A stretch of DNA of 64,000 nt from Fodinicurvata sediminis DSM 21159. GTDB taxonomy: Bacteria; Pseudomonadota; Alphaproteobacteria; Kiloniellales; DSM-21159. Under the pieces are notes generated by a model, which worked only from the letters and a program-made list of their open reading frames with translations, had not been told where the DNA came from and did no database searches. The translations under genes were made by a program, and so were the position numbers. Positions 3,540 through 49,135 of the stretch are shown piece by piece. Each line of letters begins with the position of its first letter. The stretch's first letter is position 1. The stretch lies in contig NZ_ATVH01000013.1 in NCBI RefSeq assembly GCF_000420625.1, positions 1 to 64,000 of the forward strand, read 5' to 3'.

Positions 3540-3550
3540 TCGTTTTCCAC

Positions 3551-5548
<1,998 letters not shown>

Positions 5549-45389: not shown

Positions 45390-45890
45390 CTATTCGCCTT
45401 CATCCGCCGGCGGTGCCTCCATCTCGTCGATGGGAACCCCCGGGCGGTCGGTCGAGGTGCGAATCACCTGGACGGTCAGGACGGTTGAGACATGCGGCGC
45501 CGAAGTCAGGCGCTGGGTCAGCTCGTTCTCATGCGCCGTGTTGCGCGCCACAACCTTGAGGAGGAAATCGTGCGGGCCGCGCGCCATGTGGCATTCGCGG
45601 ATTTCCGGCCAGGCCGCCATTGTCTCCTCGAACTCCTGCAGGACGGCCTCGCTCTGACTGTCGAGCCCTACCAGCGCGAAGAACATGACTTCGAACCCCA
45701 GGGCCTCGGCATTCACCTCGGCATGATAACCCTTGATGTAGCCAGCCTCCTCCAGGGCGCGCACACGCCTGAGGCAGGGCGGCGCCGAGATACCCACCCG
45801 TTTGGCCAGGTCGACATTCGTCATGCGCCCCTCGGCCTGAAGGTCCTTGAGAATCCGCATGTCGATGCGGTCCAGCTTGACGCGGGGCAT
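45390..45890 (-). CDS. Lrp/AsnC-family transcriptional regulator
   Basis: A 166-residue Lrp-type protein: LDRIDMRILKDLQAEGRMTN, LAKRVGISAPPCLRRVRALE (HTH) and a RAM domain with VMFFALVGLDSQSEAVLQEF and RECHMARGPHDFLLKVVARN. ATG 45890 follows GGGAGA. Its position between greA and trxB matches the carB-greA-lrp-trxB-lsrB arrangement of other alphaproteobacteria. Effector amino acid unknown. Confidence 0.9.
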   Translation of the reverse strand: MPRVKLDRIDMRILKDLQAEGRMTNVDLAKRVGISAPPCLRRVRALEEAGYIKGYHAEVNAEALGFEVMFFALVGLDSQSEAVLQEFEETMAAWPEIRECHMARGPHDFLLKVVARNTAHENELTQRLTSAPHVSTVLTVQVIRTSTDRPGVPIDEMEAPPADEGE

Positions 45891-46222
45891 GGAGGGTTCT
45901 CCCATTAGGTGTTGCGCGATCGGCGCCCGGGGCGCACTGCACGGCTTGTTGGTGTTGCAGCAAGTCTCACCAAGAAACGCGTTGCGCAAGAATATTACTT
46001 TACCCATGGGTTACGCAAGCGAAGTCGTTAGACTGTATCGTTTTTTGAGTGACTTTATAATACGCGCGTCGCCAACAGGCCGCTTCGCGAATACGCCTAT
46101 TCGAAGAATTTTCCGCAGGGCGGCTTGCCGTTTGTCATCGAAAGGTTGTATAGTAAACAGGTCGTGTATGTCACTGTGCGCACAATCATGAAATGGAAGA
46201 CACCAACTTAGGATAAACAATC
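45891..46222. promoter_or_regulatory. Divergent AT-rich control region between the Lrp and XRE genes
   Basis: This 332-base gap has no gene. It holds the palindrome TTGCGCAA at 45982-45989 and a related TTACGCAAGC at 46011-46020, possible Lrp sites, and a perfect TATAAT at 46056-46061 about 160 bases before the XRE gene, without a clear -35. AT content is higher than in the surroundings. Confidence 0.45.
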
Positions 46223-46799: not shown

Positions 46800-47765
46800 A
46801 TGAGCGAGACGAAACACAGCAAGGTTCTGATCCTGGGATCCGGCCCGGCCGGTTATACAGCGGCCGTCTATGCTGCGCGCGCCAATATGGAGCCAATGCT
46901 GATCCAGGGGCTGCAGCCAGGCGGACAGCTCTCCATCACGACCGATGTCGAGAACTACCCCGGTTTTGCCGACGCGATCCAGGGCCCCTGGCTGATGGAG
47001 CAGATGCAGGAACAGGCCCGGAATGTGGGCACCGAACTGGTCAGCGACATCATCGTCGAGGTCGAGCTCGACAGCCGGCCGATCCGCTGTCACGGCGATT
47101 CCGGAACGATCTATACCGGCGATACCCTGATCATCAGCACAGGCGCCCAGGCGCGCTGGCTGGGCCTTGAAAGCGAAACGCGTTTCATGGGGGCGGGTGT
47201 TTCCGCCTGCGCCACCTGTGACGGCTTCTTCTACCGCGGAAAGAAGGTTGCCGTGGTTGGCGGGGGCAACACGGCCGCCGAGGAAGCTTTGTTCCTGACC
47301 AATTTCGCGGAAAGCGTGACGCTGATCCATCGCCGCGATGAACTGCGTGCCGAAAAGATCATGCAGGAACGACTGTTCCGCAATCCCAAGATCGAGTGCA
47401 TCTGGGACAGTGTGGTCGAGGAAGTGCTGGGCGAGGACAACCCGCCGGGGGTGACCGGCCTGCGCCTGCGTAACCTCAAGGACGGCAGCACCCGTGAACT
47501 CGAGACCGATGGCCTGTTCGTCGCCATCGGGCATGACCCGGCCACGAAGCTGTTCCAGGGCCAACTGCCTATGGATGACGAGGGCTACATCATCACCGCT
47601 CCCGATTCCACGGACACCGGAGTGCCCGGCGTTTTTGCGGCGGGCGACGTGAAGGACAAGGTCTATCGCCAGGCTGTCACGGCAGCAGGAATGGGCTGCA
47701 TGGCCGCCCTTGAGGCCGAACGCTTCCTGGCGACCCAGGAAGTGACAAGCGCGGCTGCGGAATAG
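46800..47765 (+). CDS. trxB: Thioredoxin-disulfide reductase
   Basis: NADPH-dependent flavoenzyme that reduces thioredoxin. The 321-residue protein has the FAD loop [20 protein letters not shown], redox CATC at C137/C140 in [16 protein letters not shown], the NADPH loop [17 protein letters not shown] and the final FAD motif [20 protein letters not shown]. It precedes the LsrB-like regulator by 180 bases. Confidence 0.98.
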
Positions 47766-47945: not shown

Positions 47946-48833
47946 ATGGATTGGGATAAACTGCGTATCTTCCACGCCGTTGCCGAAGCGGGAAGCTTCA
48001 CCCACGCCGGCGAGGTCCTGAACCTCAGCCAGTCGGCTGTCAGCCGCCAGATCAGCGCGCTGGAAGACAGCCTGAAGGTGCCCCTCTTTCACCGCCACGC
48101 GCGCGGCCTGATCCTGACCGAGCAGGGCGAACTGCTTTACCGCACCGCACACGAGGTCTTTGCTAAGCTGGCAATCACCGAGGCCCAGTTGACCGAGAGC
48201 CGTGACCGGCCGCGCGGCTTGTTGAAGGTCACGACCACCGTGGCTTTCGGGTCCACCTGGTTGGCGCCGCGCCTGCGCCATTTCATGGACCTCTATCCCG
48301 ACATCGAGCTGCATCTGATCCTGGATGACCGGGAACTCGACCTGTCCATGCGCGAGGCCGACGTCGCCATTCGCATGTCACCGCCGCGCCAGGGCGATCT
48401 GATCCAGCGCCACCTGCTGAACGTCCATATCCAAGCCTATGCCGCGCCGGCCTACCTTAAGAAGCATGGCTTGCCGCAAAGCGTGGAGGAACTGGACAAG
48501 CACCGTCTGGTTGTCTACGGCCAGGACACGCGGCCCCCGGTTCCCGACGTCAACTGGCTGCTGCGCAGCGGCACGGCGACGGGCATGCGACGGCCGGCAC
48601 TGACCGTCAACAACATCTACGCCATCATGCAGGCCATCACCATGGGCGCTGGCATCGGCAGCCTGCCGGAGTACATGATCCAGGAGGACAGTGACCTGGT
48701 TCAGATTCTCCCGGACCTGGAAGGCCCTCGGATCGATGCCTATTTCGTCTATCCCGAGGAATTACGCGGAACTCAGCGTATCGAGGTTTTCCGGGATTTC
48801 CTGCTCCGTCAGGTTGCAGAGTCACGTCTGTAA
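47946..48833 (+). CDS. lsrB: LysR-family regulator, LsrB-like
   Basis: A 295-residue LysR protein: MDWDKLRIFHAVAEAGSFTH, LNLSQSAVSRQISALEDSLK, PLFHRHARGLILTEQGELLY. The N-terminus and its place directly after trxB match LsrB of Sinorhizobium and Agrobacterium, a regulator of oxidative-stress, glutathione and envelope genes. Unlike what is reported for rhizobial LsrB, this protein contains no cysteine, so it cannot sense peroxide by Cys oxidation. The small RNA that follows is in the position of AbcR RNAs next to lsrB. Confidence 0.78.
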   Translation: MDWDKLRIFHAVAEAGSFTHAGEVLNLSQSAVSRQISALEDSLKVPLFHRHARGLILTEQGELLYRTAHEVFAKLAITEAQLTESRDRPRGLLKVTTTVAFGSTWLAPRLRHFMDLYPDIELHLILDDRELDLSMREADVAIRMSPPRQGDLIQRHLLNVHIQAYAAPAYLKKHGLPQSVEELDKHRLVVYGQDTRPPVPDVNWLLRSGTATGMRRPALTVNNIYAIMQAITMGAGIGSLPEYMIQEDSDLVQILPDLEGPRIDAYFVYPEELRGTQRIEVFRDFLLRQVAESRL

Positions 48834-48852: not shown

Positions 48853-48898
48853 GCTGTTGCCTTTGAGCAACAGGGGTGTAGCTATGCGACAGTCGCAT
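48853..48898 (+). other. Two short hairpins after lsrB
   Basis: CTGTTGC-CTTTGA-GCAACAG (48853-48872) and ATGCGA-CAG-TCGCAT (48884-48898) follow the lsrB stop. Neither has a T-run. They may end or stabilise the lsrB mRNA and separate it from the small RNA. Confidence 0.4.
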
Positions 48899-48960
48899 GG
48901 CCCATTTGTTCGTTTGTGCATAGACAATCAGGGGGGAAAATCCCATTTTTCTTGTCAGAC

Positions 48961-49135
48961 GATGTTGCGACGCAGCATCCCTGAGAGCCCGGCGCCAGCG
49001 CCGGTCTCTGGTCCGGAATCCCTTCCGGACCCAGGGCCTTCGGGCGCGCCCCTCGCGCAGAAGGTCCTACGTCTCCCAGACGTGAAGCCTCCCTGTTCAA
49101 CTTGCCGGGAACCTTTTGGTTCCCGGCATTTTTTT
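48961..49135 (+). ncRNA. Multi-hairpin small RNA, AbcR/alpha-r15-like candidate
   Basis: About 175 bases without a credible reading frame fold into consecutive hairpins: 48961-48979 (8 bp), 48984-49009 (CCGGCG/CGCCGG core), 49011-49030 (8 bp, loop TCCC), 49034-49067 (GGGCCTTC/GAAGGTCC outer, GCGCG/CGCGC inner, loop CCCCT), 49069-49083 (ACGTCT/AGACGT, loop CCC), and a terminator. CCTCCC at 49088-49093 lies unpaired and is complementary to a Shine-Dalgarno GGAGG. Location after lsrB, CUCCC-type motifs and terminator match AbcR trans-acting RNAs that repress ABC-transporter mRNAs in Rhizobiales. A weak TAGACA (48921) with CATTTT 17 bases on would start it near 48956. It could instead be a different sRNA family or a leader. 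Confidence 0.62.
49103..49135 (+). terminator. Rho-independent terminator of the small RNA
   Basis: A perfect 11-bp stem, TGCCGGGAACC with GGTTCCCGGCA, loop TTTT, followed by seven T. Confidence 0.95.

Follow-up and report, generated by a model that had tools for sequence, protein, structure and literature searches.

A conserved and probably LsrB-controlled small RNA with anti-Shine-Dalgarno motifs occupies the AbcR locus in an alphaproteobacterium outside the Rhizobiales

Results

In the window, that is, the whole stretch of 64,000 nucleotides from Fodinicurvata sediminis DSM 21159 that was analyzed here, a gene for an lrp-type regulator (45390 to 46007, minus strand) lies divergently upstream of trxB-lsrB, as in Rhizobiales. 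On the plus strand, the thioredoxin reductase gene trxB (46800 to 47765; NCBIfam TIGR01292 over its cut-off) precedes lsrB as in Agrobacterium, and lsrB itself (47946 to 48833, plus strand) encodes a LysR-type regulator of 295 amino acids, which we identify as the LsrB/VtlR orthologue from its NCBIfam LysR matches, from the trxB-lsrB order and from tblastn, where it is 52 to 58% identical to named Rhizobiales LsrB proteins. About 125 nt past the lsrB stop, and on the same strand, follows the small RNA gene (48957 to 49135, ∼179 nt, with a predicted 5′ end), so that the earlier note's placement of a small RNA behind lsrB was correct, with trxB and lrp further upstream. The order trxB-lsrB-sRNA equals that of trxB-vtlR-abcR1-abcR2 in A. 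tumefaciens (PMC7486931), here in an alphaproteobacterium outside the Rhizobiales.

As a comparison set we used 80 named LsrB loci, nearly all from Rhizobiales, for which the lead query was an LsrB sequence 96% identical to the Agrobacterium loci. In the Rhizobiales loci, trxB stood ahead of lsrB in 78 of 80 cases and Lrp was present in 65 of 80; in a class-wide sample of Alphaproteobacteria, trxB preceded lsrB in 70 of 80 loci. Run as a control on 20 Rhizobiales loci, the Rfam model of ar15 (RF02345) gave 26 matches of up to 122 bits just downstream of lsrB, in agreement with the earlier statement that AbcR adjoins lsrB in that order. Two records, titled Bacillus subtilis SK6B4 (L190) and Arenimonas sp. 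(L160), carry Pseudochrobactrum-like and Rhizobium-like lsrB loci, respectively, and are probably mislabelled or contaminated assemblies.

The region from 48961 to 49135 folds into exactly six hairpins, with a minimum free energy of −95.2 kcal/mol compared to −62.0 ± 4.5 for shuffled sequences (z = −7.45; 0 of 200 shuffles equal). All parts lie on the plus strand. A 5′ hairpin, GATGTTGCGACGCAGCATC (48961 to 48979), is kept in relatives, and it is followed by three variable hairpins with the C-rich loops TCCC and CCCCT (48984 to 49068; individually 48984 to 49009, 49010 to 49031 and 49033 to 49068), whose stems are maintained while sequence and length differ among relatives. Next comes an invariant hairpin, ACGUCUCCCAGACGU (49069 to 49083), displaying CUCCCA, which equals motif M1 of AbcR as known from Brucella. 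The fold and the conservation in homologues mark the stretch GAAGCCUCCCUGUUCAACU (49084 to 49102) as a predicted single-stranded anti-Shine-Dalgarno (anti-SD) seed, in which CCTCCC (49088 to 49093) is unpaired in the predicted fold. The gene ends in an intrinsic terminator (49103 to 49135) with an 11-bp stem (49103 to 49128) and seven T residues. The hairpin count, the TCCC and CCCCT loops, the unpaired CCTCCC and the strong terminator described in the earlier note were all recovered, as were the additional 5′ hairpins relative to the compact AbcR layout (∼179 nt compared to ∼112 to 121 nt); of its CTCCCA loop, the sequence is indeed present in the hairpin, but the fold shows only a CCC triloop with closing pairs U-A and C-G. 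A coding origin was rejected, with hairpin lengths varying freely and the conserved portion being RNA-like.

Upstream of the RNA lies an LTTR-type dyad, GCTATGCGACAGTCGCATGGC (48881 to 48901, no strand assigned), with an ATGC-N7-GCAT core (48884 to 48898) that forms a T-N11-A box; we propose this dyad as the LsrB site. It matches the published LsrB half-site consensus GCAT-N3-TG-N3-T (PMC7486931) only in part, at all positions but TG (GCATGGCCCATTT). A T-N11-A dyad occurs in 56 of 73 loci that carry the conserved core of the RNA (2.4 expected from Markov shuffles), the strict form being absent from 17, and in 29 of 65 ar15 loci (5.2 expected from Markov shuffles). For the 25 loci in which dyad and first hairpin could both be located, the dyad center always lies 67 to 70 nt upstream of that hairpin, and a similar dyad stands ∼65 nt upstream of the RNA in Hoeflea ar15 loci. 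The dyad is also retained in 7 of 7 loci, from two lineages, with no lsrB inside the fetched 3 kb, and because it persists there with the RNA, it belongs to the RNA and not to lsrB. A terminator scan flagged this palindrome, ∼68 nt upstream; we rejected it as a terminator given its constant distance before the RNA, its lack of a proper T run and its retention where lsrB is missing. Between dyad and RNA we propose a promoter (48921 to 48949, plus strand), with −35 TAGACA (48921 to 48926), a spacer of 17 nt, −10 CATTTT (48944 to 48949) and a start near 48957, all read by eye from the aligned upstream regions of relatives; a σ70 consensus scan did not find it.

Rfam matches in the window at gathering thresholds were limited to two tRNAs and one TPP riboswitch, with nothing at the small RNA. 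(The riboswitch, at 3542 to 3661 with 71 bits and upstream of thiC, is ordinary.) A match to a different RNA family, named in the earlier note as contrary to its reading, did not appear either, since no family reached its cut-off: under permissive settings, the 3′ part of the RNA scored 27.0 bits with SorX, 25.8 with suhB/MmgR and 21.5 with SorY, compared to gathering cut-offs of 46.6 (RF02784), 41 (RF00519) and 111 (RF02651). The family of the window RNA is thus outside Rfam 15 at threshold. The covariance-model search for AbcR/alpha-r15 proposed in the earlier note gave no match to ar15 in the window, neither at the gathering score nor at an E value of ≤10; across 142 genomes of the class, the ar15 search returned nothing and its controls were equally silent, so that this result was given no weight. 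In its conserved 3′ half (TACGUCUC...CCUCCCU...ACUUG and the terminator), the RNA is closer to alpha-r8/MmgR than to ar15. A true alpha-r8 gene, with 54 bits and the seed UUUCCUCCCU, is found in the same genome at G000:C14:485860-485934 (L329), where it adjoins a gene read by eye as N-formylglutamate amidohydrolase (FGase-like), and a weaker alpha-r8-like place (32 bits) lies at G000:C11:518970-519052. This agrees with published alpha-r8 RNAs, which have the open 10-mer seed UUUCCUCCCU and an N-formylglutamate amidohydrolase gene as neighbor (PMC12559287).

The 3′ core (49065 to 49133), made up of TACGTCTCCCAGACGTGAAGCCTCCCTGTTCAACTTGCC and the terminator, is nearly invariant, with 39 invariant alignment columns among 25 order-level relatives. 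A nucleotide search of 58 relatives found the element in 54 genomes, from 24 of 26 genera. We built a covariance model of the core, named R1, so that a family which no Rfam entry matches above threshold now has one. Of 289 genomes sampled evenly across the Alphaproteobacteria, 138 contained the core according to R1, and lsrB and the RNA occurred together in 127 of these 138, a count uncorrected for kinship; among 80 lsrB loci of the class sample, 54 had a match of at least 35 bits, usually 150 to 330 nt past the lsrB stop. In 78 homologues, whose alignment was fitted to the structure, 97.6% of cells are paired and double changes affect 13 of the 14 pairs, with a covariation score of 0.429, compared to 0.108 when shuffled and ≤0.072 when slid; the terminator stem shows full covariation. 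CCUCCCUG is present in 76 of the 78 homologues, and CUCCCA within the hairpin part in 65.

A second, weaker R1 match in the genome studied here (G000:C16:187500-187568; L320, ∼2001 to 2069), with 36 bits, CUCCCUGUGCAACUUGCC and a terminator, is convergent with ABC transporter permease genes and may be a sibling sRNA. The lsrB-linked RNA occurs in three copies in L090 (2293 to 2887) and in two in L050 (2693 to 3128), and genome G290 has six R1 matches, a tandem or multicopy state that recalls the AbcR1/AbcR2 tandem of rhizobia.

R1 and ar15 were mutually exclusive at the same position downstream of lsrB. At the ar15 positions of Rhizobiales, R1 reached only 10 to 15 bits, so that sequence does not establish homology of both RNAs, and it found nothing above 25 bits anywhere in eight ar15-clade genomes. 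We built an LsrB tree of 131 rows, for which Rhizobiales loci that lack the strict ar15 string received the ar15 label from their position. The tree unites the ar15 loci in a single group with a support of 100 and places the R1 type to either side of its midpoint root. The lsrB loci with ar15/AbcR make up one clade, and every other RNA-bearing lineage has the R1 type.

The genome has an hfq gene. Target prediction for transporter ribosome sites, another proposal of the earlier note, failed to beat matched controls. We collected genes that have AACAGGGAGG, fully complementary to the seed, ahead of their ATG (for the genome studied here, the 9-mer ACAGGGAGG), comparing 75 with 38 sites in 26 genomes; 16 of 29 genes behind the seed complement encode solute-binding proteins, compared to 11 of 26 behind a composition-matched (permuted) control site and 7 of 22 behind a third control site. 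Since the controls are nearly equal, the transporter bias is a property of strong ribosome sites generally and no proof of specific targeting. More broadly in relatives (L223 to L319), 32 to 55% of the genes behind GGGAGG or AAGGAGG ribosome sites encode solute-binding proteins, whatever the flanking bases.

Discussion

AbcR RNAs and LsrB/VtlR have been studied as tools of host-associated Rhizobiales, in symbiosis and virulence. There, AbcR together with Hfq represses transport mRNAs, and LsrB/VtlR activates abcR in Agrobacterium and Brucella. For S. meliloti, one study describes activation of AbcR by LsrB (PMC8844928) and another reports no LsrB effect (PMC7486931).

Judged by structure, conservation, covariation, synteny and the dyad with its spacing, all properties of the sequence, the AbcR locus of this bacterium outside the Rhizobiales appears to hold a genuine, conserved gene for an anti-SD sRNA that is probably under LsrB control and is not ar15 by the defining model. 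We consider it likely that this RNA is independently transcribed, acts in trans, is activated by LsrB, depends on Hfq and is the counterpart of AbcR outside that order. For its transcription, LsrB activation, Hfq binding and targets we infer the following mechanism: LsrB, encoded just upstream, would bind the dyad at 48884 to 48898 and activate a promoter with its start near 48957, giving an RNA of ∼179 nt that would terminate at the intrinsic terminator and that Hfq probably holds by the U tail. The RNA would display several C-rich anti-SD segments, above all CUCCCA in its hairpin loop and the open stretch CCUCCCUGUU, which may pair with GGGAGG-type ribosome sites and so block translation of many mRNAs, with targets probably weighted toward solute-binding proteins of ABC, TRAP and TTT transporters.

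Other origins have to be weighed against this. An alpha-r8 duplicate (MmgR/SisA) that landed behind lsrB, keeping the alpha-r8 target set and without a special AbcR-like role, would fit the 25.8 bits of the suhB model at this place and the TACGUCUC...CCUCCCU..ACUUG and terminator common to the true alpha-r8 copy; moreover, Caulobacter is known to have duplicated alpha-r8 (SisA-D; PMC12559287), and ar15 and suhB belong to one Rfam clan. Yet we regard such a duplicate as unlikely, as the score falls short of the 41 bits required for that family, the seed UUUCCUCCCU occurs in 0 of 78 homologues of the window RNA, the true alpha-r8 gene lies elsewhere in the genome beside the FGase-like gene, and the window RNA, which is not beside an FGase gene, has a proposed LTTR promoter of its own that is retained class-wide. 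Because it shares TACGUCUC, CCUCCCU and ACUUG but not the 10-mer seed, it is probably an old relative of alpha-r8 and not an orthologue.

Release by RNase E as a 3′-UTR fragment of the lsrB mRNA, in the manner of SorX from its host mRNA, would suit the same strand, the ∼125 nt after the lsrB stop and the 27 bits of the SorX model; we find it improbable in view of the conserved promoter architecture with the dyad at constant distance and of the seven loci without nearby lsrB in which RNA and dyad persist together. Still less probable, and in our opinion very much so, is a role mainly as a sponge or decoy of other sRNAs, or of ribosome sites at large, instead of as repressor of a transporter set. 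The several redundant C-rich loops and the RNA-RNA titration between CrfA and SisA in Caulobacter (PMC12559287) could be read this way, but the seed matches start sites, and CrfA, which is known to sponge anti-SD RNAs, is G/A-rich; being C-rich, the window RNA would itself be the target of a sponge.

For the LsrB-activated anti-SD sRNA that we favor, parsimony over the lsrB loci favors R1 as ancestral and AbcR as its descendant or replacement, a reading that counts as inference since the tree root is a midpoint. We lean somewhat toward an undescribed, class-wide, LsrB-controlled anti-SD family that was ancestral at trxB-lsrB, with AbcR/alpha-r15 as a diverged descendant (or replacement) in one clade of Hyphomicrobiales. 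Relatives of this RNA hold the same position in a large part of the Alphaproteobacteria, which suggests that AbcR of rhizobia and Brucella stands where an older and more widespread system was located. The earlier note, which had supposed an expanded or divergent AbcR, was largely right on the kind of RNA and not on family membership: an anti-SD RNA with the CUCCCA M1 in a hairpin loop does stand at the AbcR locus outside the Rhizobiales, whereas ar15 membership was not borne out, the M2 motif is absent, and the divergent member became a class-wide family.

If this history is true, LsrB-sRNA control of nutrient uptake predates the host-associated lineages where it was first found. A similar RNA, preceded by a similar promoter box at constant spacing, follows this regulator in about half the alphaproteobacteria sampled, and such control would then be a general trait of the class, offering a natural series in which the sRNA seed changes while locus and control stay. 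A search of papers readable without subscription found no account of this lsrB-linked family outside the Rhizobiales.

Several known RNAs share parts with the window RNA. RFMSmelC671 reportedly has the open seed CUCCCUGU, and SorX and SorY have the CCUCCCUGUUNNACUU seed and a terminator in common with it at sub-threshold scores. BjrC1505 (RF02356) of Pleomorphomonas (L337, 1501 to 1639) contains the identical seed CCTCCCTGTTCAACTT; this RNA, which does not lie near lsrB, also has the identical CCUCCCUGUUCAACUU, and its model has no match in the window. Several RNAs of the class therefore have the 3′ module in common, and the seed alone does not define the role of the window RNA. With alpha-r8 (MmgR, SisA-D, suhB) it shares the ACGUCUC hairpin arm, the open CCUCCCU seed, ACUUG and the terminator, and differs in score, 10-mer seed, FGase neighbor and the presence of a separate alpha-r8 gene. 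AbcR acts through a pair of anti-SD motifs: M1 (CUCCCA), presented by a hairpin loop, and M2 (GUUCCC), located between hairpins (PMC5461406). Compared to AbcR1/AbcR2, the window RNA lacks an ar15 model match and M2, with CCUCCCUGUU at the position of the latter, and it is longer and single copy, with extra 5′ hairpins; both have the lrp-trxB-lsrB-sRNA locus, a T-N11-A dyad ∼65 to 68 nt ahead, the CUCCCA hairpin loop, an open C-rich seed and a terminator. By sequence, then, the window RNA resembles alpha-r8, to which its 3′ half is nearer, and by locus, promoter and CUCCCA loop it resembles AbcR, of which it would be the functional and positional counterpart.
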